64,000 nt of DNA, from assembly GCA_027067055.1 (NCBI GenBank), contig JAMOMK010000026.1, forward strand, positions 62,001-126,000, in the 5' to 3' direction. The translations under genes and the position numbers were made by a program. This stretch comes from Lysobacterales bacterium. GTDB lineage: Bacteria; Pseudomonadota; Gammaproteobacteria; Xanthomonadales; Marinicellaceae. Below the pieces are notes generated by a model that made no database searches, was not told where the DNA came from, and saw only the letters and a list, made by a program, of their open reading frames with translations. This document shows positions 16,385 through 46,999 of this stretch, piece by piece. Position 1 is the stretch's first letter. Every line of letters begins with the position of its first letter.

Positions 16385-18259
16385 ATGGCAATACTCTCAT
16401 TAATAAACGTATCATTGGATTTTGGTGCAGAACCTCTTTTGGATGAAATTAATTTCTCTATTAATAAAGGACAAAAAATTTGTTTGATTGGAAGAAATGG
16501 TGAAGGAAAATCATCTCTGATGAAACTTCTAACAGGGGATATTCCTTTAGAACACGGTGAAATCCGTCGTCATGGTTCGGCAAAAGTTGGAATGATGGAA
16601 CAAAATGTACCAATTAATAAAAATAATGATGATATATACACATTAGTTGCCAAGGCATTAGGTAGTGCTGGAGATGACATCATTGCTTACCACCATGCAC
16701 TCAACAATGACCTCGATACAATTGATAGTATTGGTGAAAGAATCACTGAAAGAGATTCTTGGATGCAATTAAATACAATAGAAACGGTAATTTCTCAATT
16801 AAATTTAGATAAAGACCAAACATTTAATGACCTTTCTGGTGGAGTAAAAAGACGTGTAGTCTTGGCTAGAGCATTGGTACAAGAACCAGATTTGTTACTT
16901 CTAGATGAGCCAACCAATCATCTGGATATTGAAACAATCATCTGGTTGGAAAAATTTGTAAAAAGTTTAAATATTGCCGTTTTATTTATTACCCATGATA
17001 GAGCGTTTCTTAAAAATATTGCAACAGGCATACTAGAGCTTGATAGAGGTAAAATACATTATTATGACTGTGATTATGATACTTATCTCGTTAGGAAAGA
17101 AGCCAGGTTAGATGCCGAAGATAGAGAGAATAAGCTCTTTGATAAAAATCTTGCCAAAGAAGAGGTGTGGATAAGGCAAGGTATTAAAGCAAGGCGAACG
17201 CGCAATGAAGGGCGCGTTAGAGAGCTAAAAAAATTACGCATTGTTCGTTCTCAAAGGCGAGTTCAAAGTGAATCGGCACAAGTACAAATTAATATTGCAG
17301 AAAAATCAGGCAAAAAAGTCATCACAGCTGAAAATATAAGTTTTGGTTGGGGTGAGGGTAATGATAAAAAAGTATTATTTGAAAAGTTTTCAGCCAAGAT
17401 TAGGCGTGGCGATAAAATTGGTATAATTGGTAAAAATGGAGTGGGTAAAACAACCTTAGTCAATATATTGCTTGGAGAATTGCAGCCATTAACAGGGACT
17501 ATTAAGCATGGTGTTGGTCTCGAAATAGCCTATTTCGACCAATTGAAAGGCAATTTAAACTTAGAAGATACCGTTGCTAATAATCTCAATCAAGGAACAG
17601 ATGAAATTGTCATTAATGGCAACCCAACTCATGTGATTAGTTACCTGCAAAAGTTTTTATTTAGACCTGATAAAATACGAGCACCTGCAAAAGTGTTGTC
17701 AGGCGGCGAACGCTCGCGTTTGTTGCTTGCCCGATTGTTTGCTCGCCCTGCTAATGTTTTGGTGCTTGATGAACCAACAAATGATTTGGATATGGAAACA
17801 TTGGATTTATTGCAGGAGCAATTATATGAGTTTCCAGGAACAGTACTGCTTATTAGCCATGATAGAGATTTTATTGATAAAGTTGCAACCCAAACTTATG
17901 TATTTGAGGATAATGCGCATATACAAGAGTACGTTGGAGGTTATCAAGATTATCTGATTCAAAGGCCTGAGGAAATAAAAGAAACAAAAGCAAAAACTAA
18001 GGTGGTTGAAACAAATACAGTAAGCGGTAAAAAATCTGAGGTCAAAAAGCTCACCTTTAAAGAACAGTATGAGTTAGATAATTTACCAAAAGAAATTGAT
18101 AAGCTAGAAAAACAACTAGAAGAGCTTAATACACAAATGGCTCAAGAAGACTTCTATCAAAAAGATGCTCACACAATAAAGCAAGTGACGCAAAGGCAAC
18201 AAAAACTCAATCAAGAGTTAGAGCTAAAGTTTGAAAGATGGGATGAGCTAGATAAATAA
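16385..18259 (+). CDS. uup: ABC-F family ATPase Uup
   Basis: ABC-F proteins are cytosolic paired ATPases without membrane domains. Uup acts on ribosomes and is linked to suppression of precise transposon excision in E. coli. The 624-residue product has two ABC cassettes: Walker A GRNGEGKSS at 36-44 and GKNGVGKTT near 348, signatures LSGGVKRRVVLARAL and LSGGERSRLLLARL, and Walker B LLLLDEPTNHLDIET and VLVLDEPTNDLDMET. An arginine-rich linker joins them. A charged C-terminal region (about 535-624) rich in EQ-LEK patterns should form the coiled-coil DNA- or ribosome-binding domain typical of Uup. Confidence 0.93.
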   Translation: MAILSLINVSLDFGAEPLLDEINFSINKGQKICLIGRNGEGKSSLMKLLTGDIPLEHGEIRRHGSAKVGMMEQNVPINKNNDDIYTLVAKALGSAGDDIIAYHHALNNDLDTIDSIGERITERDSWMQLNTIETVISQLNLDKDQTFNDLSGGVKRRVVLARALVQEPDLLLLDEPTNHLDIETIIWLEKFVKSLNIAVLFITHDRAFLKNIATGILELDRGKIHYYDCDYDTYLVRKEARLDAEDRENKLFDKNLAKEEVWIRQGIKARRTRNEGRVRELKKLRIVRSQRRVQSESAQVQINIAEKSGKKVITAENISFGWGEGNDKKVLFEKFSAKIRRGDKIGIIGKNGVGKTTLVNILLGELQPLTGTIKHGVGLEIAYFDQLKGNLNLEDTVANNLNQGTDEIVINGNPTHVISYLQKFLFRPDKIRAPAKVLSGGERSRLLLARLFARPANVLVLDEPTNDLDMETLDLLQEQLYEFPGTVLLISHDRDFIDKVATQTYVFEDNAHIQEYVGGYQDYLIQRPEEIKETKAKTKVVETNTVSGKKSEVKKLTFKEQYELDNLPKEIDKLEKQLEELNTQMAQEDFYQKDAHTIKQVTQRQQKLNQELELKFERWDELDK

Positions 18260-28180: not shown

Positions 28181-28600
28181 TTATTCTACAACCTCAAAAT
28201 CATGGGTAATATTGACAGTTTTATCAAGCATTGCTGATACGGAACAATATTTTTCCGCAGATAATTTAACGGCACGAGCAACAGACTTATCATCTATATT
28301 ACTTCCAGAAACAATAAAGTGCAGATGAATATCCGTAAAAATACGGGGAAATTCATCTCGGCGTTCAGCTGTTGCTACAACTTCTAACTTGCTGACGTCT
28401 TTTTTTGATTTAGTTAATATTAATTTAACATCAATCCCAGCACATCCCATCAATCCAAATAACACCATCTCCATTGGGGAAGGTGCAATTTTTTCACCAT
28501 CTTTGGTGGTGGGCGCATCCATGATGACGGACTTGTAACTGTCAGTCTTTCCAACAAATGTATAATCTTGTAACCAAGTTGCTGTAACTGTTTGACTCAT
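28181..28600 (-). CDS. OsmC family peroxiredoxin-like protein
   Basis: OsmC/Ohr proteins reduce organic peroxides with two cysteines. The ATG at 28600 is chosen because TTGGAGAA precedes it by about 6 bases; the frame extends to a TTG at 28612. The 139-residue product has the two expected cysteines, one in LFGLMGCAGIDVK and one in SAEKYCSVSAML, which fits the YhfA-type OsmC subgroup. No signal peptide is seen. Together with the glutathione peroxidase and GST genes next to it, it makes a small oxidative-stress neighbourhood. Confidence 0.9.
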   Translation of the reverse strand: MSQTVTATWLQDYTFVGKTDSYKSVIMDAPTTKDGEKIAPSPMEMVLFGLMGCAGIDVKLILTKSKKDVSKLEVVATAERRDEFPRIFTDIHLHFIVSGSNIDDKSVARAVKLSAEKYCSVSAMLDKTVNITHDFEVVE

Positions 28601-36906: not shown

Positions 36907-38160
36907 TCACATCATCATACTAAACAATTCAGGTTTATCATTGAGGTAATCACTGTAAAAATCTAGATCTTTCATTCGTTGAATTAACGGTTCAAAGTCT
37001 TTGGCATTTTTGAGTTCTATACCAACAATGGCTGGACCATGGGCGCGGTTGTGTTTTTTGTGGTATTGGAAGTAAGTGATGTCGTCATTTTTGCCCAGGA
37101 CATCGGCAACAAATTCTTTTAGAGCACCGGCACGTTGGGGGAATCGCACCATGAAGTAGTGTTTGAATCCGCCGTAGAGTAGGGCTTTTTCACGTATTTC
37201 TTCGATGCGTGTGATGTCGTTGTTGCTGCCGCTTAAGATGCAAACAACGGTTTTGCCTTTGATTGCATCGACGTATTGTTCTAAACCAGAGAGTGCCAGT
37301 GCGCCTGCTGGTTCGACCACGATGGCATCTTTGTTGTAGAGGTTGAGTATGGTTTGGCAGATTAGTCCATCATCCACAGTGATTAAATCATCTATTTTAT
37401 CTTTGCATTGCAGATAAGTAAGTTCGCCCACTTGTTGTACGGCTGCGCCATCGACAAAGCCACTAATTTTATCCAGCTTGATGTTATGCCCTGCATCAAA
37501 AGCGGCTTGCATGGAAGCCGCACCTTTGGGTTCTACACCGATGATTTTGGTGTTCGGTGAAAGTTGTTTAAACACAGTACTGATGCCAGAGGCCAATCCT
37601 CCTCCACCAATGGGCACAAAAATATAATCGATAGGTCGTTGATGTTTTTCTAGTATCTCCAAAGCAATGGTCGCTTGCCCTTCGATGATTTCCATGTCAT
37701 CAAAAGGGGGAATATAAAGGTAATTATTTTGTGAACAATATTTTTTGGCAGCTAATCCCGTTTCATCAAAGGTATCACCAACCAGTTTGACTTCAATTTG
37801 ATTATGACCAAACATTTTGACTTGTTCAATTTTTTGGTTAGGTGTGGTAACTGGCATAAATATCGTGCCTTTGATGCCAAGTTTGTGACATGTGTAAGCC
37901 ACACCTTGGGCGTGGTTACCCGCACTTGCACAGACCACATGTTCGGCATCGTGTTGTGAAATTTTATTATAAGCCCCACGAATTTTGTACGAACGCACTT
38001 GCTGCAAATCTTCGCGTTTGAGGTAAATATTGGCTCCATAAATAGCCGAATACTGCAAGTTTTCCTGCAAAGGCGTACGTTGCACCACCGCTGATATGCG
38101 TTGTTGTGCGGCTTTGATGTTTTCGATTGTTGGGCTTTGGGTGTGTTTCATTTTTATCAT
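36907..38160 (-). CDS. ilvA: Threonine dehydratase (ammonia-lyase) with C-terminal ACT-like domain
   Basis: This PLP enzyme converts threonine to 2-oxobutyrate, the first step of isoleucine synthesis. The 417-residue product is the short form with one regulatory domain (E. coli IlvA is 514). The PLP lysine is K59 in VRSYKIRGAYNK, and the phosphate-binding loop is GGGGLASG. From about residue 335, HYFMVRFPQRAGALKEFVAD begins an ACT-like domain, so feedback control by isoleucine is possible. ATG 38160 is used; ATG 38151 (MKHTQS) is equally plausible, and neither has a strong ribosome-binding site. It is the last gene of the ilv operon, separated from ilvC by a 27-base-arm inverted repeat. Confidence 0.92.
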   Translation of the reverse strand: MIKMKHTQSPTIENIKAAQQRISAVVQRTPLQENLQYSAIYGANIYLKREDLQQVRSYKIRGAYNKISQHDAEHVVCASAGNHAQGVAYTCHKLGIKGTIFMPVTTPNQKIEQVKMFGHNQIEVKLVGDTFDETGLAAKKYCSQNNYLYIPPFDDMEIIEGQATIALEILEKHQRPIDYIFVPIGGGGLASGISTVFKQLSPNTKIIGVEPKGAASMQAAFDAGHNIKLDKISGFVDGAAVQQVGELTYLQCKDKIDDLITVDDGLICQTILNLYNKDAIVVEPAGALALSGLEQYVDAIKGKTVVCILSGSNNDITRIEEIREKALLYGGFKHYFMVRFPQRAGALKEFVADVLGKNDDITYFQYHKKHNRAHGPAIVGIELKNAKDFEPLIQRMKDLDFYSDYLNDKPELFSMMM

Positions 38161-38263: not shown

Positions 38264-39310
38264 TTAACTATTCTGCGGTCTTAAACCACGTACGGTTTTG
38301 CCTGTTTGCCAAATTTCGGAGTCATGAATTTCTTTTAACTCTTCATTTAGCTTTTCGCGGTAATCTTCTTTTGAGTTGGCTTCAATAGTGATGCGTGCTT
38401 CGTTACCCGTTTTTACGCTGTCATAAAGTTCTTCAAATAATGGTTCATTTAAATCACGGAATTTATGACGCCAATCCAGTGCACCACGTTGGGCTGTTGT
38501 TGAGGTGTTGGCATACATCCAGTCCATGCCATTTTCAGCAACTAAGGGCATTAATGATTGTGTAAGTTCTTCAACTGTTTCATTGAATGCTTCAGATGGT
38601 GAGTGACCATGTTTGCGTAATACATTGTATTGTGCTTCAAACATGCCTGCGATTGCGCCCATTAAAATGCCACGCTCGCCGGTTAAATCAGAATACACTT
38701 CGCGTTTAAAATCGGTTTCAAATAAATAACCAGAACCGACACCAATACCCAGTGATAATGCGGTTTCTTTGGCGTTACCTGTGGCATCTTGGAAAACTGC
38801 ATAGCTTGAGTTTAAGCCTTTGCCATCAAGGAATAATGTACGAAGTGAACGCCCAGATCCTTTGGGGGCAACCAATATTACATCTACATCTTTTGGCGGG
38901 ATGATTGATGTTTGTTCGTTAAAAGTCACACCAAATCCGTGTGAGAAATACAATGTATCTCCAGCGTTTAAGTTGGCTTTAACTGTATCCCATGCGGCAA
39001 TTTGACCCGCATCAGATAGCAAATACATGACGATGTCTGCTTTTTGTGTGGCTTCAGCAATTGTGAAGAGTGATTTTCCTGGCTCAAAACCATCATCGAC
39101 TGCTTTTGCCCATGAAGGGGATTCTTGACGTTGACCAACTATCACATTAAAACCATTGTCACGCAGGTTTAATGCCTGTCCTGGACCTTGTACGCCGTAA
39201 CCAAGTACTGCGATTGTTTTATCTTTTAGGTTGTTTTGGGCTTTTTCTAGTGGGTATTCTTCACGAGTTACCACTTCTTCCATTGTGCCGCCGAAATTAA
39301 GTTTTGCCAT
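38264..39310 (-). CDS. ilvC: Ketol-acid reductoisomerase
   Basis: IlvC isomerises and reduces acetohydroxy acids with NADPH in valine and isoleucine synthesis. The 348-residue product differs from the 491-residue E. coli form. It begins MAKLNFGGTMEEVVTREEYP and has the Rossmann loop VLGYGVQGPGQALNLRDNG, the block FSHGFGVTF, VILVAPKGSGRSLRT and the metal-binding knotted domain SDLTGERGILMGAIAGMFEA with ETVEELTQSLMPLVAENGMD. From memory, this version most resembles the Bacteroidetes-type enzyme, so the gene may have been acquired. It is in the ilv operon between ilvH and ilvA. Confidence 0.95.
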   Translation of the reverse strand: MAKLNFGGTMEEVVTREEYPLEKAQNNLKDKTIAVLGYGVQGPGQALNLRDNGFNVIVGQRQESPSWAKAVDDGFEPGKSLFTIAEATQKADIVMYLLSDAGQIAAWDTVKANLNAGDTLYFSHGFGVTFNEQTSIIPPKDVDVILVAPKGSGRSLRTLFLDGKGLNSSYAVFQDATGNAKETALSLGIGVGSGYLFETDFKREVYSDLTGERGILMGAIAGMFEAQYNVLRKHGHSPSEAFNETVEELTQSLMPLVAENGMDWMYANTSTTAQRGALDWRHKFRDLNEPLFEELYDSVKTGNEARITIEANSKEDYREKLNEELKEIHDSEIWQTGKTVRGLRPQNS

Positions 39311-39456: not shown

Positions 39457-39978
39457 TTAATAATTTATTTTGCCTATACTGATTGGTCCTGATCGGACAA
39501 ATTCTAATATACCATAGGGTTCTAGTTCATCGAATAGGGCTTGTGTTTCGTGTTTGTGACCTGTTTTTTCTATTACGGTATAATCGCGATGGATACGCAA
39601 GATTTTTGCATTGTGTTTACGAATAATATCCTCGGTTTGGATGTCATCAATCATGACATCAGATGGGATTTTATACAAGGCAACTTCTTGCTGAACTATC
39701 AAATCATCGGTTGCGTAAACGGCTTTTAAAACATCCACTTGCTTTTCAATCTGTTTGGTAATACGTCGCACCAACTTTTCTGTGGTGTGTACTCGTACCG
39801 AGTAGCGGTATACGCCATTGGTTTCTGTTTCGGATACATTTAAGCTGTCGATATTGAGTTTTATGCGTGAAAAAACAGCCGTAATTCGATTGAGAATGCC
39901 TGCACGATTACGTGAAAATAATGCCATAGTGTAATCTTTTTTACTTTCGTCAAATGTGGTGTTGATGTTATGTTGCAT
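39457..39978 (-). CDS. ilvH: Acetolactate synthase small (regulatory) subunit
   Basis: The small subunit activates the catalytic subunit and mediates valine inhibition. The 173-residue product has an N-terminal ACT domain (about 18-90) with the block YTMALFSRNRAGILNRITAV, which is the ligand-binding ACT loop, and SVRVHTTEKLVRRITKQIEK. A second, ACT-like C-terminal half (about 95-173) follows with VALYKIPSD. It begins one base after the ilvB stop (TAA-C-ATG), so the two subunits are coupled. There is an N-terminal extension of about 17 residues relative to E. coli IlvH. Confidence 0.93.
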   Translation of the reverse strand: MQHNINTTFDESKKDYTMALFSRNRAGILNRITAVFSRIKLNIDSLNVSETETNGVYRYSVRVHTTEKLVRRITKQIEKQVDVLKAVYATDDLIVQQEVALYKIPSDVMIDDIQTEDIIRKHNAKILRIHRDYTVIEKTGHKHETQALFDELEPYGILEFVRSGPISIGKINY

Positions 39979-39979
39979 G

Positions 39980-41752
39980 TTATTTTAACCTCATATCTGA
40001 TACAGAATCGCCTGGAGAAATCATTGGAAAGACATTATCTTCTTGCCCGACCATGACTTCTAATAAATAAGCCCCATCAGTATCTAGCATGGTTTGCAGT
40101 GCTGTTTTTAATTCTTCGCGTTTGGTAATTTTTGCTGATGCAATATCATAAGCAGATGCCAGTATTTGGTAATTTGGGCTAGTTATTTCTGTTGATGCAT
40201 AGCGTTTGTCAAAGTAAAGCTCTTGCCATTGACGCACCATGCCAAGAAATTCATTGTTTAATATAATGATTTTGACATCAATTTGCGTTTGCATGATTGT
40301 GCCGAGTTCTTGGATATTCATTTGCACTCCACCATCACCGACTATGCCAATAACTGTGCGCTCTGGTTTTGCCAGTTTGGCACCCATTGCAGCTGGAATG
40401 CAAAATCCCATGGTGCCGAGTCCACCAGAAGTAATCAGTGAGCGAGTTTGCGAGTATTTAGCATAACGGCAAGTCGCCATTTGGTGTTGCCCAACATCGG
40501 TAACAATAATCGCATCATTTTGTGTCAGGTCATTAATCATATTAACCACTTCTGACATGGTGAGTTCCTTTTTTGTTGGTGTTAAATCATCTTTAACCAC
40601 CGCCTCAAACTCTTCTTTATCTAGTTTATAAAATTCTTCACGCCATTGAGGGTATTTCTTTTCGGTAATTCTGTCTGTGATTTGTGGTAAGGTATATTTG
40701 ACATTGCCTAAAACAGGAACATTAACACGAACATTTTTGTTGATTTCGCTGTTGTCTATTTCTAGATGAATGATTTTGGCTTGTCGAGCATAAGTACTTA
40801 ATGTGCCAGTCACACGGTCATCAAAACGCATGCCAACAGCGATAAGTAAATCACAGTGGTTGGTCAATAAATTTGGAGCGTAATTACCATGCATTCCGAC
40901 CATGCCGACATAGTTTTCATGGTCTGTGTCAATGGCGGATAAACCCATAATGGTTGCAGCGGCAGGAATACCACTTTTTTCTAAAAAGGTTTTGAATTCA
41001 TTTTCTGCTTCACCAAGGATAACGCCTTGTCCAAATACGATTAAAGGTTTTTTAGCCAAGTTAATGAGTTCAGCAGCATCTTCAATAGATTGTGGCCTTG
41101 GTGTTGGTTCGGGTAGGTAACTATTAAAATGCAGGCATTTCTTGTAGGTATAATCTAAATAATCCATTTGAGCATTTTTAGTGATGTCAATCAGCACCGG
41201 CCCTGGTCGTCCAGATCGTGCAATAAAAAAAGCACGTGCCATAACTTGTGGTATTTCTCTTGCTTCAGTTATTTTGTAGTTCCATTTGGTAATTGGCATG
41301 GATATATCAATAATATCGGTTTCTTGAAAAGCATCTGTTCCTAGTAAATCTTTATGCACTTGACCGGTAATACAAACCAAAGGTGTTGAATCAATTTGTG
41401 CATCAGCGATACCCGTGATTAGGTTAGTGGCTCCAGGGCCAGATGTGGCGATACAAACACCAACACGCCCGCTAGCACGAGCATAACCTTGAGCGGCTAA
41501 AATAGCACCTTGTTCATGACGAACCAGAACGTGTTTTATGTCATTTTGGAATTGATGTAAGATATCATAAGTTGGCATAATTGCGCCACCCGGATAGCCA
41601 AATATAATGTCAACCTCCTCAGCAATTAAAGATTTGATTAGTGCTTCAGAACCGAGCATTTTTATAGGGTCTTCGGTTGGCTGTTCATCGTGAATTTGTT
41701 GCCAGTTTTTATTAACAATTGATTTAATTGAATTGCTTTCTACTTTAAACAT
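39980..41752 (-). CDS. ilvB: Acetolactate synthase large (catalytic) subunit
   Basis: This enzyme condenses pyruvate with pyruvate or 2-oxobutyrate using TPP, Mg and FAD. The 590-residue product has an N-terminal extension of about 30 residues, then [20 protein letters not shown] with the PGGAI motif, [20 protein letters not shown] (the conserved glutamate contacting TPP), SGPGATNL and, at the C-terminal side, the TPP motif region [14 protein letters not shown] to [12 protein letters not shown]. The symbol could equally be ilvI. Its ATG overlaps the ilvD stop codon by 8 bases (GATGTTTAA), so the genes are coupled. Confidence 0.96.
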
Positions 41753-43427
41753 CGGTTAAACACCCCTTTGATGCAGAAGTTACGTTACGTGCATATTTGC
41801 GTAAAACACCGCGTTTGTATTTAATTTCTGGTGCTTGCCAGTTTTGTTTTCTTGCCTTTAAAACATCATCGTTGACATGAAGAGTTAATTCATTAGTCGT
41901 GGCATCAATGGTGATTTTATCGCCATCTTCAACTAGAGCAATTGTGCCACCAACTTGTGCCTCTGGTGTGATGTGCCCAACCACAAATCCGTGGGTTCCA
42001 CCTGAAAAGCGACCATCGGTTATCAGTGCCACATCATTGCCAAGTCCCGCTCCAATTATAGCTGCTGTGGGCTTGAGCATCTCGGGCATTCCAGGTCCGC
42101 CTTGCGGTCCTTCGTAGCGAATAACAACAACATCGCCTTTTTCAACCTTGCCATCGGCTATGCCTTGGTTGACAGCTACTTCAGAATCAAAAACTTTTGC
42201 TTTGCCAGTAAAGCTTAAACCTTCTTTTCCTGTAATCTTGGCAACCGAACCTTCTGAGGCTAAATTGCCAAACAAAATGCGGATATGCCCTGTTTCTTTA
42301 ATGGGTTTGTCTAAGGTCATGATGACATCTTGGATGGGTGATAATGATTTAACTGATGCTAAATTTTCGGCTATTGTTTTACCTGTTACAGTCATGCAAT
42401 CACCATCTAGCATATCATTTTCAAGCATGTACTTCATTACTGCAGGAACTCCACCAACTTCGTGCAGATCTTCCATGAGGTATTTGCCACTGGGTTTTAG
42501 ATTGGCTAAAAAGGGTGTGGTATCACTTATTTTTTGAAAGTCATTGATATCAAAATCAATGCCAGCTGCATCGGCTATAGCCAAAAAGTGTAATACCGCA
42601 TTAGTCGAGCCACCTAAGACAGTGACTAACCTAAAGGCATTTTCTATGGATTTCTTGGTGACAATATCTCGTGGTTTTAAATCAGATTGTAAGAGTTGTT
42701 CAATTTGGCTGCCGATACTTTTGCATTCATCCAGTTTTTGTTGGCAGATAGCCGGATTGGATGAATTGTAAGGAAAGCTCATGCCCATAGCTTCAATTGC
42801 CGATGCCATGGTATTGGCTGTGTACATACCGCCACATGCTCCTGCTGACGGACAAGCTTTTGAAACAATTTCATCAAAGGTTTTTTCGTCTATTGTACCA
42901 GCTACTTTTTCACCCCATGCTTCAAAGGCTGAAACAACATCGAGTTTTTTGCCATCATGACAACCAGCGGCAATTGTTCCACCGTAAAAAAGGATTGAAG
43001 GGCGATTAAAACGCAACATTGCCATTAATGCGCCAGGCATGTTTTTGTCACAGCCGACAATGGAGATATTGGCATCATAACTCATGCCTTGGGTGACCAT
43101 TTCTATCGAATCGGCAATAATATCACGTGAGGGTAAAGAAAATCGCATACCTTCTGTACCCATTGAGATGCCATCAGAAATGCCAATGGTATTGAAAATT
43201 AACCCATTCAATGCTTTTTTGTTGACTGAATTTTTAATGTGGCTTGCCAAATCATTAAGGTGCATATTGCAGGGGTTACCATCGTATCCAGTGCTTGCAA
43301 TGCCAATTAGTGGGTTGTTTAAATCCTCATTCGTCATGCCAATAGCGTGAAGCATAGCTTTAGCTGCCGGTTGTGTATCGTCTTGAGTGACGGCTTGCGA
43401 GTATTTGTTGAGTTTATCGTTGCTCAT
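41745..43427 (-). CDS. ilvD: Dihydroxy-acid dehydratase
   Basis: IlvD dehydrates dihydroxy acids in valine and isoleucine synthesis using an iron-sulfur cluster. The 560-residue product has the cluster-binding cysteines: one in [14 protein letters not shown], one in [14 protein letters not shown] and one in [20 protein letters not shown]. It also shows [12 protein letters not shown] and [19 protein letters not shown]. The length is shorter than E. coli IlvD (616) and fits the alternative ~560-residue subgroup. It is second in the operon, after ilvE, and overlaps ilvB. Confidence 0.96.
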
Positions 43428-43442
43428 GAAATCAATTGTCCT

Positions 43443-44309
43443 TTAGGTGCGCGCATACTGGTTAAATTGTTGTTGAAGTGCATGACCAAAAGTTTCTTGC
43501 CAGTCTTTGCTGAACTTTTTGTCATCCAGTGATTCAATTGGATTAACTTCTACCGCAGTACCTGTGAAAAATGCACCATCAGCGTTATATACCTCATCTG
43601 GAGTAAAGTGCTTTTCTTCAACTTTGATGCCTTTTTGTTTGGCTAAGTCAATGATAACTGAGCGTGTAATGCCTGGTAAAATATTTCCACGTGGTGCTGT
43701 ATATAATGTATCCCCTTTTTGGTAGAAAAAATTAGCACCAGTAGCCTCGGCAACAAAACCATGATTGTCTAACAACAATGCTTCGTCAAAGCCCTTTTGT
43801 TTGGCATCTTTTATGGCTATGAGTGAATTGGTGTAATGTCCTGTGACTTTGGCTTCGACATGACAAGATTTTGGATCTGGCCTTCTAAAAGGTGAGGTCA
43901 TGGCACGGACAGGTTTTTCGTAATATTTACCCCAATCCCAAGCACACATAAATAGGTTGGCATGGCTTTCTGGTTGTAATCCCATGTTTTCATCGGTGTA
44001 AACTAATGGACGAATATAGGCATCTTGCATATTGTTTTTTTTCAGTAACTCATAACAGATGGATTCCAATTCATCGACACTATATTTTAAGTCGATGTAC
44101 ATTTTTTCAGCAGAGTAGAGCAGTCTCTCAAAATGTTCTCTTATCTTGAGGACTTTTGCGCCATTGTCAGTCTTGTATGAACGCATGCCTTCAAAGACGC
44201 CATTCCCATAGTGAAATGATTGTTGGTATAGTCCAGTGGTTGCATCCTGTGCTTTTAACCATTGGCCGTTAAGATAAATTGTGGTGTTTTTATCGTAATA
44301 CATTGTCAT
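43443..44309 (-). CDS. ilvE: Branched-chain amino acid aminotransferase
   Basis: This class IV PLP enzyme does the last step of leucine, isoleucine and valine synthesis. The 288-residue product begins MTMYYDKNTTIYLNGQWLKA, with GLYQQSFHYGNGVFEGMRSY. The PLP lysine is K154 in EAKVTGHYTNSL, and the phosphate-cup region is near GNILPGITRSVIIDLAK. It is the first structural gene of the ilv operon. Its transcription passes the leader-peptide attenuator that ends about 40 bases upstream of this ATG. The ribosome-binding site is AGAGAAT. Confidence 0.95.
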   Translation of the reverse strand: MTMYYDKNTTIYLNGQWLKAQDATTGLYQQSFHYGNGVFEGMRSYKTDNGAKVLKIREHFERLLYSAEKMYIDLKYSVDELESICYELLKKNNMQDAYIRPLVYTDENMGLQPESHANLFMCAWDWGKYYEKPVRAMTSPFRRPDPKSCHVEAKVTGHYTNSLIAIKDAKQKGFDEALLLDNHGFVAEATGANFFYQKGDTLYTAPRGNILPGITRSVIIDLAKQKGIKVEEKHFTPDEVYNADGAFFTGTAVEVNPIESLDDKKFSKDWQETFGHALQQQFNQYART

Positions 44310-44347: not shown

Positions 44348-44381
44348 AAAAAAAAACCCTTCTCTTTTTGTATGAGAAGGG
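44348..44381 (-). terminator. Attenuator terminator of the ilv operon
   Basis: On the minus strand CCCTTCTC (44381-44374) pairs perfectly with GAGAAGGG (44364-44357) around a 9-base loop, followed by nine T bases (44356-44348). It lies between the leader peptide and ilvE and so must be read through for operon expression. The 5' arm can alternatively pair with 44404-44413. Confidence 0.92.
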
Positions 44382-44413
44382 CTTTTTGGATATCCAATTG
44401 TGCGCCATTCTCA
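44373..44413 (-). promoter_or_regulatory. Antiterminator pairing of the ilv attenuator
   Basis: TGAGAATGGC (44413-44404, beginning with the stop codon of the leader peptide) is complementary to GCCCTTCTCA (44382-44373) with one mismatch in ten. This pairing would break the terminator. A ribosome stalled on the Ile/Val/Leu codons leaves the first strand free; a ribosome that reaches the stop covers it. Confidence 0.7.
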
Positions 44414-44467
44414 CCGATTAAGGACAAGAATAATAATGACGACAATTATGTTTTGGATTAAATTCAT
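44411..44467 (-). CDS. ilvL: ilv operon leader peptide
   Basis: A short ORF encodes MNLIQNIIVVIIILVLNR, 18 residues. Twelve of them are isoleucine, valine or leucine, including the uninterrupted ten-residue run from I7 to L16. These are exactly the end products of the downstream operon. It lies after a sigma-70-type promoter and directly before an intrinsic terminator and ilvE. That layout is the hallmark of transcription attenuation, as in the ilvL-ilvGMEDA operon of enterobacteria, here with a different peptide sequence and gene order. Translation would sense charged tRNA-Ile/Val/Leu. No strong Shine-Dalgarno is visible. Confidence 0.88.
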   Translation of the reverse strand: MNLIQNIIVVIIILVLNR

Positions 44468-44499
44468 TTATGCTTTTAATAAGTATTTCTAAAGTTGCG

Positions 44500-44531
44500 A
44501 GTATAATCTCTTAGTTGAAAATCCATGTCAA
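44500..44531 (-). promoter_or_regulatory. Promoter of the ilv operon
   Basis: On the minus strand a perfect TTGACA (44531-44526) is followed after 17 bases by GATTAT (44508-44503); TATACT at 44505-44500 is an alternative -10 with 20-base spacing. Transcription would start near 44493-44496, giving a leader of about 185 bases. The rest of the 431-base ilvE-44740 gap holds the divergent region of the peroxidase gene. Confidence 0.7.
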
Positions 44532-44740: not shown

Positions 44741-46999
44741 ATGAAATATAATTTAACTCTTAGTGCTTCTAAAAATCAATTAACTGTTTTTGCTACTATC
44801 GCTCTTTTTTTTCATACCAGTTCATTTGCAGAAATGCCTGCTGTGCCAGTACCTAGTGAAAATCCAATAACTGATAGTAAAACAATACTTGGAAAAATAT
44901 TGTTTTGGGATGAACAACTATCTAGCGATGATACGGTTGCTTGTGGTACGTGCCATATACCGTCAAATGCAGGTACAGATCCAAGACCTGCAACCAACCC
45001 TGGTTTTGATAATGTATTTGGGACAGATGATGATGTTATTGCCTCGCTAGGTGTTGTTCACTATGATGAGAATATGCAGGTAGTTGATGATGAGAGATTT
45101 GGCTTTGATGTGCAAGTTACTGATAGAAATACACCAAGCTCTATTAATGCTATGTATGCAGATGAGTTGTTTTGGGATGGACGTGCTTCATCAATATTTT
45201 CGGACCCTCAAAATCCTGATATAACAGTTATATCTCAAGGTGGAGCATTAGAGTCTCAAGCTATTGGACCAATACTAAATAGTGTTGAAATGGCAAAAAA
45301 TGGCAGAACTTGGGATGAGGTTATCTCTAAACTTATATCGGTCAAGCCCTTAGCTTTAGCGAATAATATTCCTCAAGATATGGTAGATGCTTTATCTACC
45401 AACCCCAGTTATCCACAATTGTTTAATGAAGCATTTGGAGATTCTACAATAACTGCAGCACGAATTGGTATGGCGATTGCTACCTATGAGCGGGCCCTAG
45501 TTTCTGACCAAACGCCTTGGGATTTGTATATGGCAGGAGATGCTACAGCAATGACGGCAGGTCAAATTCAAGGGTGGCAGATGTTTCAAACAGGTCCAGG
45601 GGTGGGTGGCAATGGTCCCAATTGTGCTATGTGCCATGTGCCTCCTTTATTTACAGACAATAAATTTTATAATATAGGTCTAAGACCAGCACAAGAAGAT
45701 GCGGGTCGAATGAATGTGACAAATAATCCTGCTGATTTTGGCAGTTTTAAAACGCCTGGTTTACGTAATGTTGGTTTGAAATCTGCCATGATGCATGTTG
45801 GCTGGATTACTGATAGTATGGACGCTATTGATTTCTATAATGCTGGAACAGTAGATGTGACAAGCAATCACGTACAGTTTACTGCCAACCAGTCGCCATT
45901 GCCAAATAACCCTAATTCACCGATGAATCCACCCTATAGTATGACGGCAGTTCAAGTTGCATCGGAAGAAAATCAGGCAAAAATTGCTGATTTTATGGCA
46001 AATGCCTTAACAGACCCTCGTGTAGCAAATGAAACATTTCCCTTTGATAGACCAACCTTGCAAAGTGAAATAACTCACCCAATAAACTCTGGACTAAGTG
46101 GTGCTTGGTATAACCCGAACACATCAGGTCAGGGTTTTATGTTGGAAATTTTACCTGATACAAATAGAGCTTTTTTTGCTTGGTTTACCTATGATTCACA
46201 AGATCCTGTGGAAGGTTTGCCAAACTCTATTGGTGCAACAGAACATAGATGGCTTACAGGTCTTGGTGAGATAAATATGCAAGAAAAGTCAATAACTTTT
46301 GATGTAAATGTGACGCAAAATGGCTTGTTTGATAATCCTCAAGATGTGATTATTTCTCCTCCTGATAGCATTGGTAGTTTAACCATCACATTTCATGACT
46401 GTAAAACGGCTACGGTTGAGTATGATATTTTGAATTCTACACAATCAAATACTTTTGAAATATCAAGAATAAGTTCTGAAAGTGATTTTATCTGTGAAAA
46501 AATGCTAACAGGTAAACCTTTACAGGAGTTAAATATTGTAGAAAATCCGTCATCAGATTTTACAGTCAATTATGGACTTACCGGTGGTTGGTATAATGCC
46601 GAAACTTCGGGACAAGGTATACTTCTTGATGTGTTGCCTGCGACCAATCGTGTGTTTTTTACTTGGTTTACTTACGATACACAGACACCGCCTGAAACGG
46701 CAACGGCAGTTATTGGCGACCCAAGCCATAGGTGGCTTACGGGTATTGGAGAGGTTGATGTTGAAACCAAGAGTGTTACGATCGATTTGAACCTAACAAC
46801 TGGTGGCAAGTTTGATGATGCAACGCCTGTACAGTATAGTGATGCAAATAGTTATGGAAGTGTAACGATTACATTTGAAAACTGCTCATCATTACAAGTG
46901 CAGTACAATATATTGGGCACATCGCTAACGGGCAGTATTCCTCATACTAGGATTAGTGGTGAAAACATCCCGTTATGTGAATATTTATCAGGTCAGTAA
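44741..46999 (+). CDS. Di-haem cytochrome c peroxidase with two C-terminal repeat domains
   Basis: The 752-residue product has a signal peptide (about 1-30, ending SSFA) and a di-haem CcpA/MauG-like peroxidase region (about 40-440). The haem motifs are CGTCH at 68-72 and CAMCH at 295-299, with RNTPSSINAMYADELFWDGR between them. After a linker come two copies of an unrecognised module, GLSGAWYNPNTSGQGFMLE from about 450 and GLTGGWYNAETSGQGILLD from about 611. Each continues with AFFAWFTYD-like sequence, HRWLTGxGE and two cysteines. Ordinary bacterial peroxidases end near residue 350-400, so the tail (about 300 residues) is a fusion. The protein should be periplasmic or surface-exposed and reduce hydrogen peroxide or oxidise a partner. 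Confidence 0.88.
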   Translation: MKYNLTLSASKNQLTVFATIALFFHTSSFAEMPAVPVPSENPITDSKTILGKILFWDEQLSSDDTVACGTCHIPSNAGTDPRPATNPGFDNVFGTDDDVIASLGVVHYDENMQVVDDERFGFDVQVTDRNTPSSINAMYADELFWDGRASSIFSDPQNPDITVISQGGALESQAIGPILNSVEMAKNGRTWDEVISKLISVKPLALANNIPQDMVDALSTNPSYPQLFNEAFGDSTITAARIGMAIATYERALVSDQTPWDLYMAGDATAMTAGQIQGWQMFQTGPGVGGNGPNCAMCHVPPLFTDNKFYNIGLRPAQEDAGRMNVTNNPADFGSFKTPGLRNVGLKSAMMHVGWITDSMDAIDFYNAGTVDVTSNHVQFTANQSPLPNNPNSPMNPPYSMTAVQVASEENQAKIADFMANALTDPRVANETFPFDRPTLQSEITHPINSGLSGAWYNPNTSGQGFMLEILPDTNRAFFAWFTYDSQDPVEGLPNSIGATEHRWLTGLGEINMQEKSITFDVNVTQNGLFDNPQDVIISPPDSIGSLTITFHDCKTATVEYDILNSTQSNTFEISRISSESDFICEKMLTGKPLQELNIVENPSSDFTVNYGLTGGWYNAETSGQGILLDVLPATNRVFFTWFTYDTQTPPETATAVIGDPSHRWLTGIGEVDVETKSVTIDLNLTTGGKFDDATPVQYSDANSYGSVTITFENCSSLQVQYNILGTSLTGSIPHTRISGENIPLCEYLSGQ

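Follow-up and report, generated by a model that had tools for sequence, protein, structure and literature searches.

The leader region upstream of ilvE in the window, as we call the whole 64,000-nt stretch of DNA analyzed here, very probably acts as a ribosome-mediated transcription attenuator. Judging from the sequence and from modeled folds, it would set the expression of the ilvEDBHCA operon according to the supply of charged tRNA-Ile and tRNA-Val, and perhaps tRNA-Leu. Classical ribosome-mediated attenuation had been proposed in a sequence-only reading of this DNA, and it is now supported by the parts and their order, by pairings that exclude one another, and by their conservation in each of the 21 examinable operons of the family. 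The TTGACA promoter-like site, the 18-codon open reading frame (ORF), the antiterminator strand beginning at its stop codon, the terminator with nine T and ilvE all lie where that reading had placed them. The parts of the leader and the operon genes, the latter assigned with NCBIfam, are as follows.

44503 to 44531, minus strand: promoter-like site, TTGACA (44531-44526), 17 nt, GATTAT (44508-44503), from a promoter scan
44411 to 44467, minus strand: leader ORF MNLIQNIIVVIIILVLNR, 18 codons, stop TGA at 44413-44411, from ORF reading and kept in relatives
44420 to 44446, minus strand: possible strand 1 (protector) within the Ile/Val codons, limits approximate, weakly suggested by the minimum-free-energy (MFE) fold
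44404 to 44413, minus strand: strand 2, TGAGAATGGC, starting at the leader stop codon, partner of the terminator 5' arm, from folding
44386 to 44397, minus strand: small hairpin TTGG-ATAT-CCAA nested within the antiterminator, from folding
44374 to 44382, minus strand: strand 3, GCCCTTCTC, the terminator 5' arm, from folding and conservation
44348 to 44364, minus strand: strand 4, GAGAAGGG (44364-44357), and nine T (44356-44348), the end of the intrinsic terminator, from folding
43443 to 44309, minus strand: ilvE, branched-chain aminotransferase, first gene of the operon
41745 to 43427, minus strand: ilvD, dihydroxy-acid dehydratase
39980 to 41752, minus strand: ilvB, acetolactate synthase large subunit
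39457 to 39978, minus strand: ilvH/ilvN, acetolactate synthase small subunit
38264 to 39310, minus strand: ilvC, ketol-acid reductoisomerase
36907 to 38160, minus strand: ilvA, threonine ammonia-lyase, last gene of the presumed operon

Twelve of the 18 leader codons encode Ile, Val or Leu (ILV), which agrees with the function of the operon according to the NCBIfam assignments. Read off the window sequence, TGAGAATGGC and GCCCTTCTCA pair in nine of ten positions; both counts had been given correctly before. The distance between the T-tract and ilvE is 38 nt. Three features were absent from the earlier description, namely the nested TTGG/CCAA hairpin, the possible protector pairing of strands 1 and 2, and a leader ORF without a Shine-Dalgarno sequence.

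Upstream of the promoter, the minus strand carries a second short ILV-rich ORF, MTLLILVNSNILKLL, at 44737-44690, which probably arose by chance; the ORF-plus-terminator scan of the window found no terminator behind it. The divergent gene at 44741-46999 resembles, by eye from its translation, a di-haem peroxidase with repeated C-terminal parts.

We infer that transcription starts about 30 nt upstream of the leader ORF. When branched-chain amino acids are ample, the ribosome would reach the UGA, the first codon of strand 2, and cover this strand, so that strands 3 and 4 would pair as the terminator upstream of ilvE. A shortage of charged tRNA would make the ribosome stall on the Ile/Val/Leu run, leaving strand 2 (UGAGAAnGGC) free. 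Free strand 2 would then pair with strand 3 (GCCnUUCUCA) around the small nested hairpin, and RNA polymerase would continue into the operon.

Folding of the RNA in both states yielded a mutually exclusive terminator and antiterminator, which compete for the same arm, strand 3. In RNA reaching up to the terminator loop, strand 2 paired with strand 3 with the small hairpin inside (antiterminator, -15.7 kcal/mol), and the full post-stop RNA adopted the terminator fold (-20.8 kcal/mol). We also folded the window RNA with a 14-nt mask starting at the A-site codon, placing the ribosome at codon 4, at codons 7-16 or at the stop codon. Nine pairs of the 2:3 duplex remained with the ribosome stalled at codon 4 or at any of codons 7-14, dropping to seven at codon 15 and two at codon 16. 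Strand 2 begins with the UGA stop, so a ribosome positioned there would cover this strand, and the mask fold of the window then retained no 2:3 pair.

The 2:3 duplex of the window was matched by 2 of 300 shuffles. When each locus was compared with shuffles of its own strand 2, at most 5 of 300 were equally good in 20 of the 21 loci, and 16 of 300 in L005. The leader stop codon falls within the alternative pairing to the terminator arm in all 21 loci. No base-pair covariation was found in the family alignment, because the pairs are nearly invariant; this counts against the model. The two genus groups were distinguished by short exchanges: UGAG is followed by AA in 8 of 8 loci of the window's genus and by UU in 12 of 13 loci of the other group (L009-L021), and the strand-3 CTC is followed by ACC in 0 of 8 and 13 of 13, respectively. 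This ACC is able to pair with the strand-2 GGU across the stop codon, and L021 combines AA with ACC. The exchange of AA/UU and ACC between the groups appears telling for the 2:3 pairing.

A cross-arm test included 36 units, mostly from Bacteroidota and some of those near-copies, with 6 of the 21 Marinicellaceae units entered. In 24 of the 36, no more than two foreign arms paired equally well with the unit's own strand 2; the other 12 missed this mark, clearly so in L108, L110 and L112. The window unit was unexceptional, with 4 of 30 foreign arms pairing equally well, because many arms are alike.

For the protector, the MFE fold showed that the possible strand 1 is able to pair with strand 2 and with bases 3' of it. 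With strand 3 left out, the MFE structures paired 4-14 of 15 strand-2 bases with the leader, the shuffle averages being 6.1-10.4. No more than 10 of 200 codon-order shuffles folded equally well in 9 of the 21 leaders, and more than 10 did so in 12, including the window (14 of 200). In ribosome-free RNA before strand 4, the 2:3 pairing was preferred in 13 of 21 members, window included, and the 1:2 pairing in 8. These folds may weakly support a protector. The earlier statement that all parts are directly visible is slightly strong with regard to the 1:2 pairing.

Within the window, we analyzed how far the element exceeds chance. The TTGACA-17-GATTAT site scored 10 of 12 matches, sharing the best score among 37 promoter-like hits (shuffle mean, 30.5 hits), which is weak evidence when taken alone. 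The 171-nt region gave a folding z-score of -3.94, with 0 of 200 shuffles equally good, and the antiterminator stretch gave -3.53, with 1 of 200. At the local ILV frequency, 12 of 17 ILV codons have an uncorrected P of 3.8e-5. ILV-richness by itself is weak evidence for a leader and not decisive, at least 60% ILV being reached by 4 of the 550 ATG ORFs of 12-40 aa in the 64 kb. An ILV-rich ORF followed by a terminator was found by script in two cases in the 64 kb: the leader, with a core of 10/10 ILV, and a weaker one at 28293 (6/10). A simple terminator scan does not list the leader terminator, because its loop is 9 nt and the scan maximum is 8; folding does find it.

To follow the element in relatives, we searched 61 genomes with IlvE, of which 33 belong to the family (Marinicella being placed in Marinicellaceae, Lysobacterales, in NCBI's taxonomy). 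An IlvE orthologue at 56-100% identity was found in 20 of the 61 genomes, the window's own included, and in all 20 loci an ILV-rich leader of 17-26 aa and a terminator lie upstream. G008, from the same genus, is without this ilvE, and its ilvD is directly preceded by MNLIQINIVVIIILVLIR and the same terminator (L119:1343-1461). Thus, leader ORF and terminator are kept in 21 of 21 examinable family operons. Loss of the ORF and the two pairings in relatives had been named as the outcome that would speak against attenuation; both were found to be conserved. Among the remaining 12 of the 33 family genomes, the ilvD of G007 is cut by a contig end, the sole IlvD match in G011 is distant (35%), and ten have none at E 1e-50 (G001, G005, G013, G015, G017, G019, G022, G024, G025 and G028). 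Because of these ten, the operon appears patchy in the family, some of the genomes being incomplete. Contamination is unlikely for L009, L010, L015 and L020, since they lie on contigs of 0.49-1.49 Mb.

The details of the element are also conserved. The nearest TTGAC lies 59-133 nt upstream of the leader ATG (assigned by eye in L010, L019 and L021) in 20 of 21 loci, L014 having just 26 nt of upstream sequence. Strand 3 is identical across all 19 sequences of alignment A3, which omits L004 (a near-copy) and L021 (too different); both carry the same letters. In the terminator, 96.2% of cells are paired among 18 distinct sequences, and the T-tract has at least 8 T in 21 of 21 loci. Of the 21 members, 18 form the inner hairpin in their post-stop fold, and L017, L019 and L021 do not.

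An RNA model of the post-stop part, built without L021 and without L004, a near-copy of a model member, gave matches below 1e-9 in exactly these 21 of the 61 genomes; L021, outside the model, scored 6e-10. At E 0.01 there was some match in 29 of 61 genomes, many being the reverse strand of the same terminator. Weaker matches were seen, for example, in G020 C1 (1.3e-5), G024 (2.1e-5), G041 (3.2e-4), G050 (0.008) and the window's own genome (C36, 0.0028). The model also matches the window at 18241 with E 0.0056, so matches around this value mean little.

No Shine-Dalgarno sequence was found before any of the 21 leader ORFs (-0.4 to +2.7 kcal/mol), and leader translation would therefore have to proceed without one, a point against the attenuator. 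The next genes have a Shine-Dalgarno that is at least weak in 20 of 21 loci (-2.1 to -6.9 kcal/mol), L006 having been scored at a wrong ATG. Across the eight leaders of the window's genus, 22 of 22 Val codons are GTC; in the 13 other leaders GTC accounts for 39 of 66 and GTT never occurs. For comparison, the Val codons of ten window ORFs are 20% GTC and 40% GTT. The GTC preference could reflect isoacceptor choice, or pairing needs. Isoacceptor choice has been discussed for other leaders in the available part of PMC1183508.

We next consider the origin of the operon. Outside the family, the nearest IlvE proteins are from Bacteroidota, at 48-51% identity, against 37% at best in genomes of the same order. 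For IlvD, identity rises to 72% in Bacteroidota and stays at or below 52% in the other Lysobacterales searched, and IlvC is 71-74% identical to three Bacteroidota. In the IlvD tree, whose Bacteroidota rows are the best 30 of 87 matching genomes among 118 searched and which omits three fragments below 420 aa (L132, L135 and L139), 17 of 18 Marinicellaceae rows are nested in Bacteroidota with an SH-aLRT of 96; L138, a fragment, falls outside. Based on these sequence comparisons, sharing of the ilv operon between Bacteroidota and Marinicellaceae is well supported. An AU test, run without these three fragments, L138 or the two long branches L102 and L111, could not reject a single Bacteroidota clade (p 0.131), and so a transfer into Marinicellaceae is only the likely direction. 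Few Bacteroidota genomes have a close IlvE relative: in one family, 3 of 60 had one at 48-51%, and a Flavobacterium IlvE query found 20 of 296 Bacteroidota genomes at E 1e-90.

Similar leaders were found in Bacteroidota. In a first set of 34 loci, which are best matches and a non-random sample, 23 had at least one ILV-rich ORF with a terminator on the sense strand (L105 and L108 being doubtful), and none of the 34 had such a unit on the antisense strand. In a second set, 15 of 20 loci had a unit and none had an antisense one; five of its genomes are also in the first set, and in L163, L164, L167, L172 and L173 the ilvE start was not found by the script and units were counted by hand. At least two units were present in 9 of 49 distinct genomes: L050 (three), L051, L052, L057, L090, L102, L116, L163 and L168. 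Short flanks were searched, so this number may miss further tandem units. Near-copy pairs of units occur in L050 and L168. The tandem Ile-rich leader/terminator units before ilvE include the following.

L050, 2068 to 2470
L051, 2070 to 2401
L052, 2216 to 2480
L057, 1018 to 1338

On 229 kb of Bacteroidota sequence, the RNA model found units at E-values from 2e-5 to 1; part of this signal is the terminator alone, because position 18241 of the window also matches. The switch itself is perhaps shared with Bacteroidota. The Marinicellaceae attenuator may descend from the Bacteroidota units or have a new origin, either being compatible with the data. Further, we speculated that the ilv operon and its leader form a transferable module shared by the two groups, probably passed into Marinicellaceae, where the promoter is now TTGACA-like and the leader start is without a Shine-Dalgarno; in some Bacteroidota, stacks of two or three such units upstream of ilvE, some of them almost identical copies, would serve as serial checks of one signal. 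We hold this proposal to be evenly balanced between true and false.

Other explanations of the leader were also weighed. The short ORF might encode a functional hydrophobic micro-protein, with the terminator merely its gene end and ilvE separately controlled. Such a gene would fit the membrane-like look of the peptide (judged by eye), the strong terminator 3' of the ORF and the 38 nt that separate the T-tract from ilvE. This is nevertheless very unlikely, as the stop codon itself takes part in the alternative pairing in all 21 loci, the peptide varies from 17 to 26 aa with differing ends, the ORF still stands beside ilv genes where this ilvE is absent (G008), and similar units lie upstream of ilvE or ilvD in Bacteroidota. 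We give marginally less credence to an RNA switch bound by a ligand or protein (riboswitch, T-box, ppGpp motif or RNA-binding protein) that merely resembles a leader ORF. Terminator/antiterminator logic is common to riboswitches, T-boxes and similar elements, but every one of the 21 loci has an open, ILV-rich ORF, and no Rfam family reached its gathering score in the window, so that a T-box or other Rfam cis-regulator was rejected there. In six loci searched with E up to 0.1, all three matches were leader-peptide attenuators, below the gathering score of 55: Thr_leader on L009 (32.8 bits) and L017 (30.9), and Phe_leader on L050 (32.2).

The remaining explanation is that an AT-rich intergenic stretch yielded Ile-rich triplets next to a terminator by chance. 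The short ILV-rich ORFs of the window (4 of 550) and the second, weaker ORF-plus-terminator case at 28293 show that such arrangements do turn up. Against this, not one unit appeared in the antisense controls (34 and 20 Bacteroidota loci), and leader and terminator persist in all 21 operons even where IlvE identity falls to 56%, a conservation that already contradicts chance and removes this doubt; the probability of chance is negligible.

Control by Ile/Val/Leu leader-peptide attenuation is a classical, textbook type, and the window element is a further case of it in a little-studied marine family. A 2004 FEMS survey of proteobacterial attenuators reportedly also touches Bacteroidetes. The E. 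coli ilvGMEDA (ilvXGMEDA) operon likewise has an Ile/Val/Leu-rich leader, ilvL (32 aa), and then a terminator before a branched-chain amino acid (BCAA) operon, but its peptide is another one, the order is ilvL-ilvX-ilvG-ilvM-ilvE-ilvD-ilvA, and its IlvE and IlvD are 35% and 37% identical to the window proteins. Membership in the enterobacterial ilvL (ilvGMEDA) system was rejected on this organization, peptide and identity. The earlier claim that gene order and peptide differ from that system is borne out by the E. coli comparison, the nearest outside operons being those of Bacteroidota.

The Corynebacterium ilvBNC leader with the ilvB-II motif, as described in the available parts of PMC10272879 and PMC11857589, also has a BCAA-rich uORF and a terminator/antiterminator, but belongs to another phylum and another operon, and the likeness is by description alone. 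Work cited in the available text of PMC10272879 deals with a C. glutamicum leader that is formed without a ribosome binding site, and candidate Ile/Val/Leu leaders in Actinobacteria are given in the accessible part of PMC1262725. Within Bacteroidota, leader-peptide attenuation upstream of amino-acid operons is described in general terms for Flavobacterium psychrophilum (PMC9723704), but the main text, as far as available, contains no word starting with 'ilv'. In Bacteroides, short ORFs that resemble leader peptides are mentioned in the accessible part of PMC7366714, without a link to ilv. Like the Bacteroidota ilv leaders, Salmonella mgtCBR has two leader ORFs in series ahead of one operon, as seen in the available part of PMC3641672, but it responds to ATP and proline, and the window has a single unit. 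There, mgtCBR is described as a singular case of attenuators arranged in tandem for different signals. In the open-licence literature, searched by title and the start of the abstract, no paper on attenuators in Marinicella was found; nor, in the open-licence texts available, was a report of tandem ilv leaders.

Greater interest lies in the sharing between phyla and in the tandem units. With this finding, a textbook type of switch is placed in a marine family and linked to an operon that another phylum also has. It could be used to test whether an attenuator keeps working once it has moved between phyla whose promoters and start signals differ. The stacked Bacteroidota units raise the question of how a series of two or three attenuators, all for one signal, affects the sharpness of the response.
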